This document shows positions 49,891 through 62,233 of a DNA stretch of 64,000 bases, piece after piece. A model generated the notes under the pieces. That model was given only the letters and a program-made list of their open reading frames with translations. It ran no database searches and was not told the DNA's origin. Where the stretch lies: the NCBI RefSeq assembly GCF_000348725.1, contig NC_020813.1, positions 682,001 through 746,000 of the forward strand, read 5' to 3'. The translations under genes were made by a program, and so were the position numbers. Position 1 is the first letter of the stretch. Each line of letters opens with the position of its first letter. The DNA is from Pseudobdellovibrio exovorus JSS (GTDB lineage: Bacteria > Bdellovibrionota > Bdellovibrionia > Bdellovibrionales > Bdellovibrionaceae).

Positions 49891-51693
49891 ATGGACCCGA
49901 AATTTATTCGTAACTTTTCAATCATCGCGCATATTGACCATGGTAAATCAACTTTGGCAGATGCGCTTTTATCTTTCACAGGGGCTCTGTCTGATCGCGA
50001 GAAAAAAGAGCAATTCTTAGATAATATGGAACTTGAGCGTGAGCGTGGAATCACGATCAAAGCTCAAACAGTTTGTCTAAAGTACAAATCAAAAAAAGAT
50101 GGTGAAACTTACCAGATTAATTTGATCGATACTCCGGGCCATGTGGATTTTTCTTACGAAGTGTCTCGCTCGTTGGCGGCCTGTGAAGGTGCCATTCTTG
50201 TTGTCGATGCGGCACAAGGGGTTGAAGCGCAGACATTAGCCAATGTTTATTTGGCGTTAGAGAATAATCTCGAGATTATTCCTGTTTTGAATAAGGTTGA
50301 TTTGCCGACAGCTGATCCAGAGGGCGTAAAAAAACAAATCGAAGATACAGTTGGTCTTGATTGTACAGATATCATCCATGCATCAGCCAAAGAAAAGCTG
50401 GGCATCGAAGATATCTTAGAGGCTATTATTGCAAAAGTTCCACCGCCAAAAGCTGATCGTAGTTTGCCAGCACGCAGTTTGATTTTTGACTCGTGGTTTG
50501 ATGCCTATCAAGGTGTTGTGGTTTTAGTGCGTGGTGTGGATGGCGTTATCAAAAAGGGCGATCGTATCAAGTTTGTCTCTACGGATAAAGAGTACGAAGT
50601 TCTGCGCATGGGTAAGTACATGCCATTTCCCGAGCCTGTTACAGAGTTAGCTGCAGGTGAAGTGGGATTCATCATTTGCGGTATTAAAGACATTCGCGAT
50701 GTTCAAGTGGGTGATACGGTAACTTCCGCTAAGAATCCGGCTTCGGTTCCGTTGGCGGGTTTTCAGCGTATTAAGCCGATGGTATTTGCTGGGATCTTTC
50801 CTGTGGTTGCCAGTGAGTATCAAAACTTAAAGGATGCTTTAGATAAGTTATGTCTGAATGACTCATCTTTGACTTACGAAATTGAAAAATCATTGGCTCT
50901 AGGCTTTGGCTATCGCTGTGGTTTCTTAGGTCTACTTCACATGGAAATTGTGCAAGAGCGCTTAGAGCGTGAGTTTAACTTGAATCTGATCACGACGGCA
51001 CCAACGGTGGTTTATCGTATCACTAAAAAAGATGGCACAATATTAATGTTAGAAAATCCATCTGGTATGCCGGATGAAACGCAGATCGAAAAAATGGAAG
51101 AGCCATATGTAAAAGTAACTTTGCATACTCCAACTGATTATATTGGTGGACTTCTTAAGCTTTGCGAAGATAAACGTGGCATACAAATTAAGATGGACTA
51201 TATCACCGAGAAAAAAGTGATCATTGAGTACAAGTTACCAATGAATGAAATGGTGATGGACTTCTATGATCGCCTGAAATCAATTACTAAGGGCTATGCA
51301 TCACTTGAGTATGAATTCTTAGGCTTTGAAGAAGCTGATTTAGTCAAAATGGATATTTTGATCAATGCAGAACCTGTGGATGCCTTATCTTTGATTATTC
51401 ATCGTTCAAAGGCGACAACGCGCGGAAGAGCTTTAGCAGAGAAAATGAAAGAGTTGATTCCACGTCAACAGTACCAAGTGGCAATTCAAGCAGCAGTTGG
51501 AGCTAAAATTATCGCGCGTGAGACATTAGGAGCCATCAGAAAAGACGTGACGGCTAAGTGTTATGGTGGTGACATATCAAGGAAAAGAAAACTTCTAGAA
51601 CGACAAAAAGAAGGTAAGAAGCGCATGAAGCAGATCGGTTCTGTTGACGTGCCGCAAGAAGCCTTCTTGGCGATCCTAAAAGTGGAGGACTAA
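49891..51693 (+). CDS. lepA: Elongation factor 4 (LepA)
   Basis: 600-aa translational GTPase. G1 [10 protein letters not shown]2 [12 protein letters not shown]3 DTPGHVDF, G4 NKVDLP, then EF-G-like domains II, III and V and the LepA-specific C-terminal domain ([20 protein letters not shown]). Promotes back-translocation or late initiation of ribosomes. Followed after 5 nt by a signal peptidase gene: lepA-lepB, as in E. coli. Confidence 0.97.
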
Positions 51694-51698
51694 GCGAT

Positions 51699-52544
51699 AT
51701 GTTCGGACGCAAGGGCACAACACCAAAACCACAAAAACAACCAAAAAAAGAGAAGTACGGCGGCTGGGACGTCAAAAACAAATTATTTTGGACTGAGGGT
51801 TGGGGCTCGATGTTGTTGGCGGTTCTGGCGGCTTTAACTATTCGTTGGTTATTGTTAGAAGCGTATGTCATCCCATCAGGATCTATGTTTCCGTCATTGC
51901 TCAAGAACGACCATATTTTCGTAAATAAAATGACTTATGGAATCCGTTTTCCTTTCAGTGAAAAGTGGATGGTGAAATTCCGTGAGCCAGAGCGCGGGGA
52001 AGTCATTGTTTTCAAGTACCCTCAAGATATGAGCACATTCTTTATTAAAAGAATCGTAGGCGTACCGGGCGATAAAGTTAAATTTGAAAATGGTATCTTG
52101 TACGTTAATGACAAGCCACAGCCGAAAAGCGTTCCTAAATCATCTGCTGACTTTGACTATCTTCGTGAAGAGGATTTCCAAAGTGAAGGTGGTTATCATG
52201 CGACTAAAGCGAACTATGTGCACTTCACAGAATCGCTGGATGGCGGTTACCATGATGATAAGTCTCCTAAAATTGTTGAGCACAGTATCTTGATGAAAAA
52301 AGGTGAAATCATGGGTTTCCCAGGTGATGGTGAATGGGTTGTGCCTCAAGATGCCTTATTTGTAATGGGTGACAATCGTTATCATTCGCACGATTCACGC
52401 TTCTGGGGCTTTGTTCCTCAGAAAAATATTTTGGGTCGAGCGAGCTTTGTTTGGTTAAGCTGTGAAGAGATGCTTCCTGTGGTCTCTGTTCTGTGTAACC
52501 CAATAACAATCCGCGGAACCCGTTTCTTTCACAGTATTCACTAG
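51699..52544 (+). CDS. lepB: Signal peptidase I, copy 1
   Basis: 281 aa. N-terminal TM (~28-48), box B with catalytic Ser VIPSGSMFPSLLKNDHI, box D with catalytic Lys FFIKRIVGVPGDK, box E MGDNRYHSHDSRFWGF. Removes signal peptides at the outer face of the inner membrane. Ribosome site GGAGGAC. Most similar to the classical enzyme and probably the general housekeeping peptidase of the three. Confidence 0.96.
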   Translation: MFGRKGTTPKPQKQPKKEKYGGWDVKNKLFWTEGWGSMLLAVLAALTIRWLLLEAYVIPSGSMFPSLLKNDHIFVNKMTYGIRFPFSEKWMVKFREPERGEVIVFKYPQDMSTFFIKRIVGVPGDKVKFENGILYVNDKPQPKSVPKSSADFDYLREEDFQSEGGYHATKANYVHFTESLDGGYHDDKSPKIVEHSILMKKGEIMGFPGDGEWVVPQDALFVMGDNRYHSHDSRFWGFVPQKNILGRASFVWLSCEEMLPVVSVLCNPITIRGTRFFHSIH

Positions 52545-52553
52545 GTTGTAGAA

Positions 52554-53297
52554 GTGATTTTCCCCCGTAAAAAAATTGGAAAACAAGGGCGCTGGCCGCA
52601 AGCTTTAGCATTGATAGCGGCGCCAGTTGTTTTGATATTTGCTTTTCGTTGGGTAGTCTTTGAACCTTTCGTGATTCCCTCTGAAAGTATGTTACCTAAT
52701 CTTTTAGTGCACGATCACATTTTGGTGTCTAAATCGAGCTACGGAATTAAAATTCCATTCAGTGACTCGTGGCTCTTGCGCTTTTCTGGTCCTCAGCGGG
52801 GCGATGTTGTCGTTTTTAAATACCCTCTGAATACGAATGTTTTCTTTATCAAACGTGTCGTCGGATTACCGCATGATAAGATCAGTGTGCAAAATGGACA
52901 GGTTATTGTGAATGATCAACCTTGGACAATCCAAGGTGTAACGTCTGGTGCTTTTAAAGACGAAGACAGCTTTTCTTATTTCTTAGAGTCGATTCCTTCC
53001 TCGGTTGAAGGGAAGGCTCTTTCTGAACATTTAATTCGTCTGAGCGTCGGTGGACACATTGATCCTAATGAAGTGGTTTTTGAAGTTCCAGAGGGACAAT
53101 ACCTTGTTTTAGGTGATAATCGTGATCAATCACAGGATTCTCGCTTTTGGGGATTTGTGGACGATAGACTGTTAGTCGGGCAGGCTAAATATATCTGGTT
53201 AAGCTGTGAAAACACGTTAGAAGCGACTCCGATGTTGTGTGATCCTGCCACCTTACGAGCCGATCGTATTTTTACCAGAATAAGAGGGGCTAAATGA
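52554..53297 (+). CDS. Signal peptidase I, copy 2
   Basis: 247 aa, GTG start 9 nt after copy 1. TM (~13-33), catalytic Ser in VIPSESMLPNLLVHDHI, catalytic Lys in FFIKRVVGLPHDK, box E LGDNRDQSQDSRFWGF, all intact. The region between Lys and box E (~110-180) differs from copy 1, which suggests a different substrate range. Last 4 nt overlap copy 3. Confidence 0.95.
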   Translation: MIFPRKKIGKQGRWPQALALIAAPVVLIFAFRWVVFEPFVIPSESMLPNLLVHDHILVSKSSYGIKIPFSDSWLLRFSGPQRGDVVVFKYPLNTNVFFIKRVVGLPHDKISVQNGQVIVNDQPWTIQGVTSGAFKDEDSFSYFLESIPSSVEGKALSEHLIRLSVGGHIDPNEVVFEVPEGQYLVLGDNRDQSQDSRFWGFVDDRLLVGQAKYIWLSCENTLEATPMLCDPATLRADRIFTRIRGAK

Positions 53298-53953
53298 AGT
53301 ACACTATAGTTGCTATAGCCATTGCGGGGGCTCTTTTTTTTCGCGCCTTCCTTATTTCAGTATACAAGGTGACCACTCAAAGTATGGCTCCTGTCATGTT
53401 ATCAGGGGATTTCGTTTTGAGTTCTCAGTACTCCTATGGGTTGCGTGTGCCATGGGATTCGGATGTCTATTTTCAATCGGCTCCCAAGCGTGGTGAGTTA
53501 GTGGTCTTTTCGAAGAACTATAAAACGTATATTAAACGTGTGGTGGCTGTAGAGCGCGATGAAGTGGCCTACCAGCAGGGCATTTTACACCTTAATGCTC
53601 AGCCATGTTCTTATGAAACCATAGCCACTCAGCCCGAGTTATTGCGCCAGCCTGTGCTGGAAGTTTGTGGCGAGCGCCAAACGCCGGTGATGCCAGTTTT
53701 GGCTCAAGAGGCCTCTAAGGAAGGTTCTGTGGAAGGCTCTGCTGTCGAAGAGGTTGCTAAAACTAAGCTGAATTCGGGTCAGATTCTTGTAGCGAGTGAC
53801 AATCGTGATACAGAAGGTGCTGTTGAAATCGTTTATGTTGATCAAATTATTGGCAAGCCACTTTTTGTTTGGATGTCATTTGCCTCAACGCAAGATTCCA
53901 TTTCTGCAACAAGCGGAATACGTTGGAATCGAATTTTGACAAAGCTCCAGTGA
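53294..53953 (+). CDS. Signal peptidase I-like protein, copy 3 (divergent)
   Basis: 219 aa. TM at the extreme N-terminus, Ser in TTQSMAPVMLSGDFVL and Lys in YIKRVVAVERDE are kept, so catalysis is possible. Box E is changed (SDNRDTEGAVE instead of GDNR..S.DSR.WG), and an Ala/Glu/Ser-rich insert (~135-160) precedes it. It resembles TraF-like or specialised signal peptidases. ATGA overlap with copy 2. Likely processes a narrow set of proteins; not a pseudogene by sequence. Confidence 0.85.
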   Translation: MKYTIVAIAIAGALFFRAFLISVYKVTTQSMAPVMLSGDFVLSSQYSYGLRVPWDSDVYFQSAPKRGELVVFSKNYKTYIKRVVAVERDEVAYQQGILHLNAQPCSYETIATQPELLRQPVLEVCGERQTPVMPVLAQEASKEGSVEGSAVEEVAKTKLNSGQILVASDNRDTEGAVEIVYVDQIIGKPLFVWMSFASTQDSISATSGIRWNRILTKLQ

Positions 53954-53972: not shown

Positions 53973-54911
53973 ATGCCTGTGAGCAAAAGCTCTCTGATAA
54001 CATTAAAAAAAATAGATGAAAAATTCGTTCTTCATTTATTTTCAAAGTCGATTGAACTCAAAAAGAATTTTAATGAGCATCGACTGTCATCCGGTCCTTA
54101 CCACTCTGGATATAAAGGAACCGCAGCTCTTCTGTTTTTTGAACCCAGTACTCGTACACGTTTTAGTTTTGAAGCGGCTAGCAGCCGTGCTGGTTATCAT
54201 CCCATGATTTTGGATGGTGGTATCGGAACAAGCATTGAAAAAGGCGAAACCATTGAAGATACAATTAGTAATATTCAAGCATTACGACCTTCTTTCTTTG
54301 TGATTCGCTGTCAAGATCATGTGAATCTAGAGCAAATAGATAGTTTAATTGATGTTCCTATTATCAATGCGGGATGGGGTAAAAGAGGGCATCCAACACA
54401 GGCCCTCCTTGATGGATTAACCATTCATGAAAAATTAGGCTCGATTGCTGCGAAAAATATTCTATTTGTAGGGGACATTAAGCATTCGCGTGTTGTGGCG
54501 TCTCATCGTGAACTTTCTGAAGTTTTGAAATACAATATGGGATTTTGTGCGCCTCGGGAATTCTTGCCGGAAGTGATCTCCACGGGAATTCAGTGTTTTT
54601 CTAATTTACCAGAAGCTCTTGAATGGGCTGATGTTGTGATAGCACTTCGTGTTCAGAAGGAAAGACACGAAAACGAAAATCTTTTTTTAATAGAAGATTA
54701 TCGTGAAAACTTCGGACTAAATAATGAAAGACTCAAGTTAGCAAAGCCGAATGCTGTGATTATGCATCCGGGGCCAATCAACTACGGAGTTGAAATTGAA
54801 TCTGAAATACTTCAAGACCCTCGTTGTGTGATCTTAAAGCAAGTCGAAAATGGCGCATTTCTAAGGGAAGCTCTTATACGTAGTATTGTGGATAAAGAAA
54901 AAGGTGACTGA
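53973..54911 (+). CDS. pyrB: Aspartate carbamoyltransferase catalytic subunit
   Basis: 312 aa. Carbamoyl-phosphate motif FFEPSTRTRFSFE, aspartate-binding GWGKRGHPTQALLD, and MHPGPINYGVEI. First committed step of pyrimidine synthesis. No regulatory subunit (pyrI) nearby. The ribosome site is weak. carA starts 1 nt after its stop. Confidence 0.95.
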   Translation: MPVSKSSLITLKKIDEKFVLHLFSKSIELKKNFNEHRLSSGPYHSGYKGTAALLFFEPSTRTRFSFEAASSRAGYHPMILDGGIGTSIEKGETIEDTISNIQALRPSFFVIRCQDHVNLEQIDSLIDVPIINAGWGKRGHPTQALLDGLTIHEKLGSIAAKNILFVGDIKHSRVVASHRELSEVLKYNMGFCAPREFLPEVISTGIQCFSNLPEALEWADVVIALRVQKERHENENLFLIEDYRENFGLNNERLKLAKPNAVIMHPGPINYGVEIESEILQDPRCVILKQVENGAFLREALIRSIVDKEKGD

Positions 54912-54912
54912 T

Positions 54913-56034
54913 ATGGCATTAAAAAAAGGGTTTCTAGTCTTAGAAAGTGGTGAGGTCTTTGAAGGCTCACGCCTATCAGAACAGTCGGCCTTTCCCGAAA
55001 AAGCCGGAGAAGTGGTTTTCAATACATCCCACTCTGGTTATGAAGAAATTGCGACCGACCCTTCTTACTTTTCACAGATAGTCGTTATGACGGCTCCCAT
55101 GCAAGGCAACTACGGAGTTGATAGACAGGTGTGGGAATCTCGTCAGCTTTGGATACAGGGTTTTATCTGTGTGCAAATACAAAATACAAAACGTGAAAAC
55201 TCATGGGTGCGCCTACTTGTGGATCACCAAGTCCCTGTGCTGACAGAAGTCGACACTCGCCGTTTAGTGCTGCACCTTCGTAGCGAAGGAACTCCATGGG
55301 GTGCTATTGTCGCAGCTTCGAATGTCGAAGAAGCTAAAAAGAAAGCGGCTGACCTGATTCAAAAACAAAAAGGTTTAGAAGCTGACTGGGTCCACCTTTG
55401 CTCACGCCAAGAAATAGAAGATCATCAAGGTAAAAATCCAACTGGTCCGCGTGTAGCTGTGATCGACTTAGGTGCGAAAGAGAATATCCTACGCGAGCTT
55501 TTAAGTCGCTGTTCGCAGGTTCGTGTATTCCCATCACGTGTGTCTCCAGAGACAATTCAAGAATGGAAACCAGATTCCATCATGTTAACTAATGGTCCTG
55601 GGGACCCAAGTGCGGTACAACAAGTGCCAGATACAATTCGCCACTTTTTGGGGAAACTTCCGATCTTTGGTATTTGTATGGGACATCAGGTTCTATCTCT
55701 GGCTTTGGGGGCGAAAACTTATAAGTTGAAGTTTGGTCATCGTGGAGCCAACCACCCTATACGGGATACATTGCTAAATAAAATCTATATGTCGAGTCAG
55801 AATCATGGTTATGCTGTTGAAGATTCAACTTTACCTACAGATATTGAAGTGACACATAGAAATTTGAATGATCAGACTGTCGCTGGATTTTATTCTAGAC
55901 GTTACAATTGCTTGGGCATTCAATACCACCCAGAAAGCCGCCCAGGTCCTCACGAAGCCAGTGAGCTATTTGATTATTTTATATTTGAAATGCACAAGAC
56001 AAACAAAACAGAAATGGTGAATCATGGACTATAA
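54913..56034 (+). CDS. carA: Carbamoyl-phosphate synthase small subunit
   Basis: 373 aa. N-terminal CPSase small-chain domain (VLESGEVFEGS, FNTSHSGYEEIATDPSYF) and a C-terminal glutamine amidotransferase with nucleophile FGICMGHQVLSLAL and QYHPESRPGPHE. Supplies ammonia to CarB. The ATG at 54913 has AAGGTGA upstream and the family N-terminus; a longer frame to 54886 would overlap pyrB and is unlikely. Its end overlaps an unknown gene by 11 nt. Confidence 0.96.
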   Translation: MALKKGFLVLESGEVFEGSRLSEQSAFPEKAGEVVFNTSHSGYEEIATDPSYFSQIVVMTAPMQGNYGVDRQVWESRQLWIQGFICVQIQNTKRENSWVRLLVDHQVPVLTEVDTRRLVLHLRSEGTPWGAIVAASNVEEAKKKAADLIQKQKGLEADWVHLCSRQEIEDHQGKNPTGPRVAVIDLGAKENILRELLSRCSQVRVFPSRVSPETIQEWKPDSIMLTNGPGDPSAVQQVPDTIRHFLGKLPIFGICMGHQVLSLALGAKTYKLKFGHRGANHPIRDTLLNKIYMSSQNHGYAVEDSTLPTDIEVTHRNLNDQTVAGFYSRRYNCLGIQYHPESRPGPHEASELFDYFIFEMHKTNKTEMVNHGL

Positions 56035-56680
56035 TACATTCAAGCTGAGTCTGCAAAAGTTGATCGAGTACTACACGAACCCCGAGTTTTCTGTAGAGCT
56101 TAACGAAGCAAAAAGAGAGTTTTTTGATAATACGGGAACTGTTGATGAAGAAAACCCAAATTATGATTTAAGAATGCACCAATTTTATGAGTGGTATTTT
56201 TTAACTCGAAATTTAAAGAGCTATATGAAGACACCATTGGCGGCAAGTGGACAGCATCGTGATTTAAGATTAAATGAACAAGACATCCAAGCTATTGATG
56301 TTCTACAGAACACGCACCAACACACATTGTTTGAGTACTTGAAATCTAAAAATGGCATCGTTTACGTACGTAATTTGATGACTAATAAAAAAATTGAAGT
56401 GCAGCAAGAAAAGATGGTCTTTGGTTTTGATAGCAAAGAGTTTTTTCAAGCTCGCATCGTGACTATTGAGGGAAAAAATTACTTCTTAGATAGTTTTTGT
56501 TTTCATCCTGAGTCATCTCAGAAATTCATCTTAAGCGAGATCAAGATTTTGCAAAAAAATCCAGACTTGAGCTTAGAGACATTTTTATTACGCCTTAATA
56601 AAATGCGTTACAAATACGAGCAGTATAAACACGTCACTCCTGAAGCTATCTACACAAACGACAATAAGTTAGGACTTTAA
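56024..56680 (+). CDS. Unknown protein encoded between carA and carB
   Basis: 218 aa, no signal peptide or TM segment, so probably cytoplasmic. Rich in Tyr, Phe, Asn and Lys; a helical N-terminal half and a beta-looking middle (NGIVYVRNLMTNKKIEV, FGFDSKEFFQARIVTIEGKNYFLD), then a helical C-terminus. No family recognised. It overlaps carA by 11 nt and its stop touches the carB start codon, so it is translated between the two subunits of one enzyme. Could be a regulator, assembly factor or unrelated passenger. Confidence 0.8.
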   Translation: MDYNTFKLSLQKLIEYYTNPEFSVELNEAKREFFDNTGTVDEENPNYDLRMHQFYEWYFLTRNLKSYMKTPLAASGQHRDLRLNEQDIQAIDVLQNTHQHTLFEYLKSKNGIVYVRNLMTNKKIEVQQEKMVFGFDSKEFFQARIVTIEGKNYFLDSFCFHPESSQKFILSEIKILQKNPDLSLETFLLRLNKMRYKYEQYKHVTPEAIYTNDNKLGL

Positions 56681-59600
56681 ATGCCGAAACTAAACGATGT
56701 AAAAAAGATATTAATCATTGGTAGCGGGCCGATTCAAATTGGACAGGCTTGTGAATTTGATTATTCAGGGACGCAGGCATGTAAGGCATTAATGAAAGAA
56801 GGGTTTGATGTTATCTTAGTTAACTCAAATCCTGCGACCATTATGACCGATCCAGAGATTGCGACCAAAACTTACATCGAACCATTGAAATTCGACTATC
56901 TAAAGAAAATCATCGAAGTAGAAAAACCAGATGCAGTTATTCCGACACTAGGCGGACAGACCGCATTGAATCTGTCTTTAGAGTTAGCACAAAAAGGTGT
57001 ATTAGAAGCTAACAATGTCAAAATGTTAGGGGCCACACCAGAGGTCATTGAAGCGGCAGAAGATCGTGAAAAGTTTCGTACGATCCTAGATGAGTTAGGA
57101 GCCCGTTACCCGCGAAGTGAAATGGTTAAAAATTTTGATCAGGGTCTTAAGGCGGCGGAGGTTTTAGGTTACCCACTTATTCTGCGTCCCAATTATACTT
57201 TGGGTGGTGGCGGTGGCGGCGTGGCTTATACGCCGGAAGAGTATCAATCGATGCTCGTGCAGGCTTTGCATGAAAGTCCAACATCTGAAGTTCTTGTAGA
57301 AGAAAGTATCTTGGGGTGGAAAGAGTTTGAACTCGAAGTGATGCGTGATGCTTCGGGTACATTTGTTGTTGTCTGCTCGATTGAAAACCTAGATCCATGT
57401 GGCGTACATACGGGCGACAGTATCACTGTAGCTCCACAGCAGACTTTGACGGACTGGGAATACCAAGAAATGCGTGACGAAGCCTGTAAAATTATCAACC
57501 GCGTAGGTGTACAGACGGGTGGGGCCAACGTTCAATTCGCAGTTCATCCAACAAGCCGCGAGCGCGTCGTGATCGAAATGAACCCACGAGTATCACGTTC
57601 ATCGGCTCTGGCAAGTAAAGCTACAGGATTTCCAATAGCAAAAATTGCAGCCATGTTAGCTGTGGGATATCATTTAGACGAAATTCAAAATGACATCACT
57701 AAAGTGACTCCGACATGCTACGAACCAGCGTTAGATTATGTTGTGACGAAAATTCCAAAATTTGCATTTGAAAAATTTCAAGGTTCAAAGGATTTATTAA
57801 CAACACAAATGAAGAGTGTTGGTGAAGTCATGGCTATCGGCAGAACTCTGCAAGAGTCTTTGATGAAAGCTCTTTGTGCATTAGAGATGTCTCCAGAAGG
57901 TATTCCTGATATTCACTTCAGTTTAGAAAAAATCTCGTATCCCAATAGCTTGCGTATTTGGCATATTTTCCAAGCGTTCCGACATGGATTGTCTATTGAC
58001 CAAATTCAAGAATTAACGAAAATTCATCCATGGTTTCTAGAGCAAATTTCAGGTTTAATTCAGCATGAATCTGAAATAAAAAAAGCTGATTTAGATGCCC
58101 CTACTTTGCGTAAAGCCAAACGATTAGGATTTAGCGATGCCCGCATTGCAAAGTTAAAAAATAAAAGTACAGATTTTATTCGTAAGCTCAGATTAGATTT
58201 AGGGGTAAGACCATCGTTTCTGCAAATTGATACCTGTGCCGGAGAATTCCTTTCTTCGACTCCGTATTACTACTCAACCTATTGGAGTCAGGCTGATATT
58301 CAAAAACCAGCAAAACCGATAGTTGCTGTTATTGGAAGTGGACCAAATAGAATTGGCCAAGGTATTGAGTTTGATTATAGTTGCGTACGTGGCGTGAAAG
58401 CTCTGCAAAAAGCAGGGTATTTAGTCGCTATGATTAATTCCAATCCTGAAACTGTGTCGACGGATTATGACACGTCGGACTTTTTATTTTTCGAACCATT
58501 AACGGCGGAATCTTTAAGCGAGATTTTTGACGTGATTAAGCCTGTGGGTTTTGTGTCACAACTCGGTGGTCAAACACCGATCAATCTGGCTTCTGAACTA
58601 CAGAAAAATGGCTACACTTTATTAGGTTCCTCTTTAGAGTCTTTAGATCAAGCTGAAGATCGTAAGCAGTTTGCTCGTATATGCCGTGAGCTCAACTTAA
58701 AGATCCCTCAATCAGCAATGGTAGGATCTTTAGAAGAGGCTTTAGAACAAGAAACTGTTGTTGGCTATCCGATGATATGCCGTCCAAGTTATGTCTTGGG
58801 TGGGCGTCGCATGGAAGTGATTGAAAATCGTCAAGAGCTGCAATCTTACTTTTTTCGTCATCAAGATTTTATCAGTCCTAATAGCCCATGTCTCATGGAC
58901 CAGTTTTTATCGGGTGCTTTAGAGGTAGATGTTGATTTAGTGCGCGGAGTAGATTGGATTCTTGTTGGTGGGGTGATTGAGCACATCGAAGCTGCAGGTA
59001 TTCACTCGGGTGACAGTATGGGTGTCGTGCCTCCACAGCGATTGAAACCGGAAACTTTATTAAAAATTGAAGAGATGAGTCAGGAACTAGCTCACAAGAT
59101 GGATATCTTGGGACACTTGAATTTACAGCTGGCGATTAAAAATGATGAGATTTTCGTATTAGAAGCAAATCCAAGAAGCTCACGTTCAGTTCCCTTTTTA
59201 GCCAAAGCGACAGGGATTCCTCTGATTGATTTAGGGATTCGTGCGCAAATGAAAGAGAGTATTTCTGCGGAAACCCTATCCCGATATAATTGGAAAAAAA
59301 TAGATAAAATTTGTGTTAAGGGCGTTGTCTTTCCTTTCAAAAAATTTGCAGACAGTGACTCTATCTTGGGACCTGAAATGAAATCCACAGGCGAGACGAT
59401 GGGACGAGCGGACGATTATCCTGAAGCGTTGGTGAAAGCTTTCGTTGCGAGCTCACTTAACTTGCCTTCACAAGGGGAAGTCTTCTTATCTTTACGTGAT
59501 AAAGATAAAGAGCCTATGTTACCACTATTGAAAAACCTTAAAAAAATGGGGTTTCAATTTTCAGCAACAAAAGGAACGGCAGAGTTTTTAAATCGTTTTG

Positions 59601-59857
59601 ATATCGAGTGCTTATCTTTAAATAAAGTGCATGAAGGCCGTCCGAACTGTGTTGATAGGATCAGATCAGGACAGGTGAGCTTTGTTGTGAATACCACTTC
59701 GAGTCGTGAATCTGTGGCTGCGAGTTACGACATCCGTCGAGCTTGTACCGACTATAGTATCCCATGTCTGACCGAGAGTGATGCGGCCGAGGCTTTTGGA
59801 TTAGCGCTGGAAAAATCTAGGGCTGGACGTATAGAGGTCTCTCCGTTATCATTGTAA
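56681..59857 (+). CDS. carB: Carbamoyl-phosphate synthase large subunit
   Basis: 1058 aa. Two homologous halves: [20 protein letters not shown] at the start and [20 protein letters not shown] at ~residue 550, each with an ATP-grasp domain ([26 protein letters not shown]), an oligomerisation linker and a C-terminal MGS-like allosteric domain (ATKGTAEFL). Makes carbamoyl phosphate for pyrimidines and arginine. An AGGA site lies in the end of the preceding gene. The downstream gene starts 2 nt later. Confidence 0.97.
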
Positions 59858-59859
59858 GC

Positions 59860-60720
59860 ATGGTAAAAACGGCGTTTTTAAGTGTCCTATTTTTTTCATG
59901 TTTGCTATTTGCGAGTACAGAAAAAATTTCTATTGGAATACTGTCTGGTGGTAACCCGCAGGCAGTAGAAAAAGAGTCGTTGTTATTAGCTCAGAAGCTA
60001 CAAAACAAATTGGGTAGCCCCATTCAAGTTTACATTCCTAAAAGCCCTGAAGCGATGGTGAGCGCCATTAAAAGTAAAAAAGTGGATTTAGCTATTCTTC
60101 CATCGGCAGTTTATGTAGCGGCGGATCGTGAAGCCTCAGTTAAGGTTTTGCTGAAAAAAACATGGAATAATGGTCCATTTTATTATGCAACCTTTCTGAC
60201 TCTGGCGAATTCTAAAGTGAAGTCACTCAAAGACCTAAAAGGTAAAAAAGTCGCATTTGTTGATGAAAATTCATCGTCTGGTTATCTTTATCCTCGCCAA
60301 GAGCTAGAGTCGCAAAAAATTAATTTAAAAGAGGTCAACACTGTCTTTTCGGGTAATCATGCGGCTTCCATTGAAATGTTAGAAGCAGGTAAGGTAGATG
60401 CTGTCGCCGTTTTTGCCGATGACGAAAAGGCCAAGGTCAGCGCTTGGAGCCGTTTTGCTAAAAACAAAGGTAAAAAAATACGAGTTTTGTGGGTTAGTGA
60501 ACCAATCCCTAATGATCCGATTATAGTGCGTCAGGACTACTACGATAAGAACGCCAAGATCGTTCATGAAATCATGTATAATTTGATCGAAACACAACAT
60601 GAGAGTAGCTCTGATTTGGTTGAGGTTTTAGGAATGTCGGCTCTTATGCCGGCAACATCTAGACAGTATGATTCTGTACGTGAAGTGTTTAAAGCTTTTA
60701 GAAAAGGGTCAGAGTTATGA
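59860..60720 (+). CDS. PhnD-like periplasmic binding protein, in pilG position
   Basis: 286 aa. Signal peptide (to LLFAS) and a phosphate/phosphonate-type substrate-binding domain: SIGILSGGNPQA, VDLAILPSAVYVAA, LKDLKGKKVAFVDENSSSGY, AGKVDAVAVF, PNDPIIVRQDYY. This fold usually feeds ABC importers, but the next two genes encode an ABC-2 (exporter-type) pair. In Myxococcus the gene ahead of pilH-pilI is pilG, so this may be its counterpart by position. No separate ribosome site; coupled to carB. Confidence 0.82.
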   Translation: MVKTAFLSVLFFSCLLFASTEKISIGILSGGNPQAVEKESLLLAQKLQNKLGSPIQVYIPKSPEAMVSAIKSKKVDLAILPSAVYVAADREASVKVLLKKTWNNGPFYYATFLTLANSKVKSLKDLKGKKVAFVDENSSSGYLYPRQELESQKINLKEVNTVFSGNHAASIEMLEAGKVDAVAVFADDEKAKVSAWSRFAKNKGKKIRVLWVSEPIPNDPIIVRQDYYDKNAKIVHEIMYNLIETQHESSSDLVEVLGMSALMPATSRQYDSVREVFKAFRKGSEL

Positions 60721-61463
60721 CTATTCTAGAAGTTAGAAAACTGAACAAAAAATTCCGCACGGATTTTTATAAACGTCCGACTCAAGCTCTGAAAGATGTC
60801 TCTTTTAGTATTGAACGTGGTCGATTTGTAGGATTTATCGGACCCAATGGAGCCGGAAAATCAACGACGATTAAGTGTTTGCTCGAGCTTATTTTTGCAG
60901 ACTCGGGTGAGGTATTATTTTTTGGTGAAAAGTTTAACTTACGCCATAAAGCTAAAATTGGTTTTTTACCTGAGCGTCCTTTCTTTCAAGAGTTTCTTAC
61001 TGGGCAGGAGTTTCTGAAGCTTCACTGGGACCTAGCGCAGATGCCGCGTAAAGATTTCCCTAAGCGTGTTGAAGAAGTTCTTCAACTGGTGAAATTGGCC
61101 CATGCTAAAGATAAGAAATTAAAAGAGTATTCTAAGGGAATGCTACAGAGAATTGGAATTGCGCAGGCTCTGATCTGTGCACCAGAGTTTCTCATTTTAG
61201 ATGAACCGATGTCGGGTCTTGATCCAGACGGACGAATTCTTATCAAACAAATTTTAAGAGCTTTAAAAGAACAGAAAACCACAGTGTTGATGAGTACACA
61301 CTTACTGGAAGACGTAGAAGAGTTTTGCGATGATTTACTTGTGATTCACAGCGGAGTCTTAGAGTATTCGGGTGAAGTGAAAGGGTTACAGAAAAATTAC
61401 GAGAGTCTTGAAGAAGCCTATCGCCATTTTAAGATCGCCTTAACAGAGAACTTAAACGCATGA
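60717..61463 (+). CDS. pilH: ABC transporter ATPase, PilH-like
   Basis: 248 aa, NatA/CcmA-type ATPase. Walker A GPNGAGKSTTIK, Q-loop FLPERPFFQ, signature YSKGMLQRIGIAQAL, Walker B FLILDEPMSGLDPDG, H-loop MSTHLLEDVEE. ATGA overlaps on both sides tie it to the binding protein and the permease. Adjacent pilD and pilM genes and the order G-H-I-D-M known from Myxococcus support PilH, needed there for type IV pilus assembly. Function in pilus assembly is inference. Confidence 0.85.
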   Translation: MTILEVRKLNKKFRTDFYKRPTQALKDVSFSIERGRFVGFIGPNGAGKSTTIKCLLELIFADSGEVLFFGEKFNLRHKAKIGFLPERPFFQEFLTGQEFLKLHWDLAQMPRKDFPKRVEEVLQLVKLAHAKDKKLKEYSKGMLQRIGIAQALICAPEFLILDEPMSGLDPDGRILIKQILRALKEQKTTVLMSTHLLEDVEEFCDDLLVIHSGVLEYSGEVKGLQKNYESLEEAYRHFKIALTENLNA

Positions 61464-62233
61464 AACAAATTTTAACTATTCCTATCCTAGCTGTATTGAA
61501 TATCCGCGAGTGGGTGCGCTTAAAGTTTTTTTACATTATCGTGTTTTTCGGTATTTTATTTATAGCCTTCAGTCATATCTTGAGCGCTTTAACGTTCTCT
61601 GTACAAGAAAGACTCTTGTACGATTTCGGTCTTGCTGGTTTAGAGATTGGGGTACTTGTTATTTCAAGTTTGATTGGATCGCATTCGATTCAACGCGAGA
61701 TTGATCGTAAAACACTGTTTGTTATTTTAGCTCGTCCTATTCCACGCAGTCATGTGGTCATCGGGGCATGGTTGTCTACTTTGGGGTTATGTCTTCTTTT
61801 TTCATTTGGGTTTTTATTGAGTTTTACTCTATCGGCTGAAGTTTCCGGTCGTTATTATCAAGGATTGTTAGTCGCAGCTGTTTCTACCAGTTTAAAAGCC
61901 GCGATCATTTCTAGTTTTGCGATTGCCTTCAGTTTGATTGTGCGCCCAATTTTAGCATTGGGAGCCACAGTCAGTTATTGGTTATTGTGTTACTCAATGC
62001 CTGATGTTCGATTTTTCGTTTCTAAAATGGAAGATGCCGCTTTAATGAAAGTGGTGGATGTCATTGATTTATTACTTCCTAAATTTTACCTTTTCAATTG
62101 GAAGTCCTATTACTACGTTACGAATATTCCAGCGGGCCAAGATATTTTGTGGGCGGTCGTTCACAGTATGGCTTGGGCTTTAACGTGGCTTGTTGTGGGT
62201 ATTTTATTTTTCCGAAGGAAAGAAATTGTTTAA
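61460..62233 (+). CDS. pilI: ABC-2 type permease, PilI-like
   Basis: 257 aa with about six TM helices (IIVFFGILFIAFSHILSAL, IGVLVISSLIGSH, LGLCLLFSFGFLLSFTL, and others) and the ABC-2 signature region REIDRKTLFVILARPIPR. Partner of the preceding ATPase. In Myxococcus PilI occupies this place. Its last bases overlap the pilD start. Confidence 0.84.
   Translation: MKQILTIPILAVLNIREWVRLKFFYIIVFFGILFIAFSHILSALTFSVQERLLYDFGLAGLEIGVLVISSLIGSHSIQREIDRKTLFVILARPIPRSHVVIGAWLSTLGLCLLFSFGFLLSFTLSAEVSGRYYQGLLVAAVSTSLKAAIISSFAIAFSLIVRPILALGATVSYWLLCYSMPDVRFFVSKMEDAALMKVVDVIDLLLPKFYLFNWKSYYYVTNIPAGQDILWAVVHSMAWALTWLVVGILFFRRKEIV

Follow-up and report, generated by a model that had tools for sequence, protein, structure and literature searches.

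The carA–carB interval in Pseudobdellovibrio exovorus

The window, a stretch of 64,000 nucleotides from the single-contig genome (2,657,893 bp) of Pseudobdellovibrio exovorus JSS, carries a run of forward-strand genes headed by lepA, which encodes elongation factor 4 (49891–51693). Three tandem lepB-like genes for signal peptidase I (51699–53953), which like lepA are members of a conserved cluster, lead to pyrB, encoding aspartate carbamoyltransferase (53973–54911), and in the same gene run to carA (54913–56034) and carB (56681–59857), which encode the small and large subunits of carbamoyl-phosphate synthase (CPS). The last three genes were each assigned by an NCBIfam equivalog. The carA frame extends from an ATG at 54913 to a TAA at 56032–56034, and the TTG listed as its start, at 54886, probably lies too far upstream. 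A phnD-like binding protein, an ABC ATPase and an ABC permease follow carB on the same strand (59860–62233), as they do in most Bdellovibrionia, the class to which the window belongs. The triple lepB paralogues 5′ of pyrB are likewise retained in this order in most members of the class.

Between carA and carB lies gene X (56024–56680, forward strand), which runs from ATG to TAA and encodes a protein of 218 aa. It overlaps carA by 11 nt (56024–56034), an arrangement that, judged from the nucleotide sequence, makes translational coupling possible, and its TAA (56678–56680) abuts the ATG of carB at 56681 with a gap of zero. An AGGA motif at 56671–56674, within the 3′ end of X, is a putative ribosome-binding site for carB. 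Given that carB follows X and that this putative site lies inside X in the window, X is probably co-produced with CarA and CarB. The size, the overlap and the junction with carB reported in an earlier note on this DNA are exact on the sequence, and the existence of relatives, their position and conservation and the pLDDT of 94 of an AlphaFold model support its view that X is a gene between carA and carB and not a chance open reading frame. G+C at codon positions 1 and 2 of X (0.40 and 0.24) is lower than in pyrB, carA and carB, which fits a product rich in Lys, Asn, Phe and Tyr. A scan for promoters and terminators returned no more sites than shuffled sequences did.

A widespread family and its operon history

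Homologues of X were found in 55 of 60 relatives, in one copy each except in one split assembly. Across 53 aligned sequences mean column identity is 44%, and F54, H161, P162 and Y210 are invariant; W57 and R144 also count among the conserved residues. On a larger scale, the gene is present in 327 of 369 genomes of the window's phylum and in 167 of 195 genomes of the phylum of a Myxococcales MAG, two large groups in which it is single-copy and near-universal; a third phylum, that of a 'Deltaproteobacteria' MAG, yielded matches in 18 of 395 genomes, eleven of them strong. A scan of genome contigs also detected X in a MAG labelled Nitrospinaceae, and no relatives were found in viral contigs. As the earlier note had supposed, the gene is unrecognised: searches gave no Pfam family at E values up to 10, no significant match to PADLOC or to PDB sequences, and insignificant matches only to NCBIfam and PHROGs. 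FAIM1, DUF1235 and glucokinase were considered as identities and rejected, the matches being weak and isolated. X therefore belongs to a widespread protein family without a name or a known function, for which the libraries searched, including Pfam and NCBIfam, hold no domain model, even though, in two large groups with many predatory and social bacteria, more than 85% of the genomes searched carry it. We found no paper on X, and the car genes go unmentioned in the main texts of two Bdellovibrio functional studies and of a comparative-genomics paper. To our knowledge, this family has no earlier description, nor has its connection with SEC-C proteins, discussed below.

The earlier note asked whether the insertion is conserved in relatives, and adjacency to carA indeed extends far beyond the genus. 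In the Bdellovibrionia, a class label that, like Bacteriovoracia, reflects our interpretation of genome groups, the order carA-X-carB occurs at 54 of 60 loci; four of the remaining loci reach a contig end, and two, from family f2, read lepB-X-abc. Other classes of the phylum have the order carA-X-carB or carA-X. At 15 of 20 loci in the Myxococcales-type phylum the order is lepA-lepB-(pyrR)-pyrB-pyrC-carA-X, with pyrC-X at two others, and at none of the 20 does X adjoin carB. Bacteriovoracia-like genomes (family f12) have lepA-X at 11 of 11 loci, none of which adjoins carAB, and in a few genomes of the third phylum X directly follows carA, or follows pyrC where carA is lacking. These counts indicate that the old association of X is with a lepA-lepB-pyr-carA operon and that contact with carB is narrower in distribution. 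They demonstrate that X has long belonged to the lepA-lepB-(pyrR)-pyrB-pyrC-carA operon in the Myxococcota and Bdellovibrionota.

Occurrence of X with and without carbamoyl-phosphate synthase

The position of X had led to the proposal that it is a dedicated regulator or assembly partner of CPS. The conserved place next to carA fits this idea; the dedicated role is poorly supported by comparison among genomes, in which X is retained independently of CPS, lost, or relocated. Nine genomes that are at least 90% complete contain X with no CarB found (G082, G115, G119, G120, G121, G123, G187, G188 and G323), absence of CarB meaning that neither of the best two candidates scored per genome rose above the level of ATP-grasp paralogues; since these are draft assemblies, single cases may reflect gaps. 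Conversely, reduced genomes of family f4 have lost X and retained native carA-carB. In five of them (G238–G241 and G258) carA and carB are separated by 2–78 bp, in G259, G260 and genus g49 the pair is rearranged, and the CarB of G238 falls within the native clade of a CarB tree.

Relocation is seen in two further families. In f2 (L087 and L088; G037 and G045), X stays between lepB and the ABC genes and pyrB-carA-carB lies elsewhere, and f2 CarB clusters with that of f12, separate from the native clade (support 0.997). In f2 a foreign set has replaced the family's own pyrB-carA-carB, with X kept in place. In the two f12 genomes examined (G080 and G164), pyrB-carA-carB is contiguous and away from lepA-X. 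Two other f12 loci (L219 and L220, from G173 and G102) show CarA and CarB apparently fused in one open frame of ~1475–1490 residues.

X and CarB are both absent from G013, G234, G293 and G329. For G013, a single contig of the same genus at 99% completeness, the window's lepB, pyrB, carA, X and carB all lack a match, which is either a real loss of the block or a data gap; because lepB and pyrB are missing as well, the joint loss of X and CarB may be one block deletion. G008, which has carAB and no X, was rejected as a simple case of X loss, its carAB being foreign. That carA-carB pair (L086:4743-9087) lies among polysaccharide and carbamoyltransferase-like genes and perhaps serves surface-sugar carbamoylation.

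X is thus neither confined to genomes with CPS nor present everywhere that native CPS occurs. Its retention without CarB and its loss beside CarB make X unlikely to be a dedicated part of the enzyme. The evidence speaks against an obligatory role in pyrimidine synthesis and is compatible with an accessory one; being "locked between carA and carB", in the words of the earlier note, need not imply a function with CarAB.

Predicted fold, SEC-C-linked relatives and possible function

An AlphaFold2 model of X (pLDDT 94, pTM 0.89) predicts a small soluble protein composed of five helices (spanning residues 3–97), an OB-like barrel (99–161) and a basic C-terminal helix pair (163–209). The modelled helices are 3–16, 20–34, 47–60, 71–77, 85–97, 163–178 and 184–200, with six strands within 99–161. 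On average, each of the 13 groups combines an acidic N-terminal part with a basic C-terminus.

Partial matches to X in larger proteins surfaced in the third-phylum search. Among five such proteins compared with Pfam, SEC-C lies just upstream of the match in four (L376 lacks it), HEAT and TPR repeats occur in two, and a tail resembling Xre_MbcA_ParS_C in three. L377–L380 are giant proteins of ~1250–1300 aa that combine HEAT, TPR, SEC-C, an X-like domain and an Xre/MbcA/ParS antitoxin-like tail. X matched the post-SEC-C regions in hmmsearch at 2e-12 to 2e-7, and hhalign against seven of these regions gave probabilities of 98.7–99.4% and E values of 3e-16 to 6e-21 over ~175 columns; control comparisons, with reversed profiles and with families unrelated to X, reached a probability of at most 0.7%. 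The SEC-C-linked region was also modelled separately, on the basis of seven sequences of that region (pLDDT 85), giving helices at 2–17, 20–34, 46–61, 71–82, 85–96 and 163–184 and strands at 100–108, 112–117, 123–126, 140–148 and 151–161, an order and spacing that agree with those of X within a few residues up to residue 161. The profile match and the near-identical register identify X as a stand-alone version of the unnamed domain found behind SEC-C in the larger proteins. The SEC-C motif itself (PF02810) had no match in X or in 53 relatives. X is accordingly related to the domain next to SEC-C without being a SEC-C protein itself. X differs from the SEC-C multidomain proteins, whose post-SEC-C region is its homologue and shares its predicted secondary structure, in having no SEC-C motif, no repeats and no antitoxin-like tail. 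This tie gives the unnamed domain a first context and provides an idea that can be tested.

A structure search with the predicted model of X, as the earlier note had suggested, returned weak OB-barrel matches only. OB-like barrels head the lists for both models, with Z scores of at most 4.4 (the best, VIA, at 4.4) and Foldseek E values above 1e-2; against PDB and BFVD, Foldseek gave no match with E below 1e-3. The OB barrel is a shape common in nucleic-acid-binding proteins, and because the structural matches are weak, binding of nucleic acid by X is at most suggested.

From these observations we infer a biochemical role. We favor, tentatively and with a probability of roughly 0.4, the view that X is a general growth-linked adaptor that binds RNA, ribosomes or nascent or secretory proteins, and that it is not an obligatory component of CPS. 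Its production would keep pace with nucleotide and protein synthesis, and in the Bdellovibrionia X would be expressed from the operon with carB next in line. We prefer an adaptor in translation, RNA handling or export because lepA, which functions in translation, and lepB, a signal peptidase, are its old operon neighbours. Together with these neighbours, the near-universal occurrence in single copy, the independence from CPS, the homology to regions behind SEC-C, a domain type tied in SecA and YecA to Sec export and chaperone activity, the OB-like barrel and the acidic and basic halves suggest such a role. Against it are the lack of a SEC-C motif in X itself and the weakness of the structural matches, and the cross-phylum place beside carA and pyrC would also be expected of a protein specific to pyrimidine synthesis.

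That last point leads to the explanation we rank second, which is somewhat doubtful: X may be useful but dispensable in pyrimidine synthesis, as an accessory factor that regulates or helps to assemble CPS, aspartate carbamoyltransferase or dihydroorotase and that can drift from carAB in some lineages. Its position behind carA, or behind pyrC at loci without carA, in the Bdellovibrionia and other classes of the phylum, in the Myxococcales-type phylum and in a few third-phylum genomes fits this explanation, as does the joint absence of X and CarB from four genomes, but in G013 one block deletion could account for that absence. The nine near-complete genomes that carry X but yielded no CarB, the native carA-carB without X in reduced genomes and the persistence of X after replacement of its own carAB all argue the other way. 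Another reading, in which X serves the pyrimidine enzyme complex of the Myxococcota and Bdellovibrionota as a third, lineage-specific component or regulator that became dispensable in reduced genomes and acquired a second role in Bacteriovoracia, appears quite improbable.

Ranked third, and unlikely, is that X is a passenger whose function, perhaps enzymatic, lies apart from pyrimidines, translation and export and whose place reflects a stable old operon. The retention of X behind varying upstream neighbours (lepA, lepB, pyrC or carA) and the lack of a match to any family model or solved structure are consistent with a passenger, yet the carA-X order across at least two phyla exceeds what drift would lead one to expect. 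It has also to be considered whether the frame acts chiefly as a translational spacer, fixing the ratio of CarA to CarB, with a product of no importance in itself. The overlap with carA, the zero gap to carB and the putative ribosome-binding site within X would suit a spacer, but sequence and predicted fold are conserved away from carA and carB, which refutes this as the main role and leaves the idea with hardly any probability. The natural losses and relocations of X already show which experiments are worthwhile.

Comparison with known systems places X apart from each of them. YecA/AscA and YchJ of E. coli carry metal-binding domains like that of SecA, and the SEC-C-type domains of SecA and YecA are connected with Sec-dependent export or with chaperone activity (PMC8076867). 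The relation of YecA/AscA and YchJ to X is distant and conceptual, by way of the SEC-C of its larger relatives; X matches neither family model and has no metal-binding domain. PyrR and PyrI are regulators found in pyrimidine operons; they resemble X as small proteins of a pyr operon, and pyrR also occurs in some X operons, but X matches neither family. In Pseudomonas, the orf PA4757, presumably a LysE-type exporter, likewise lies between carA and carB. X has no LysE or other Pfam match and a predicted mixed helix/barrel fold in place of a membrane bundle, and the two genes would have come to lie between carA and carB independently.
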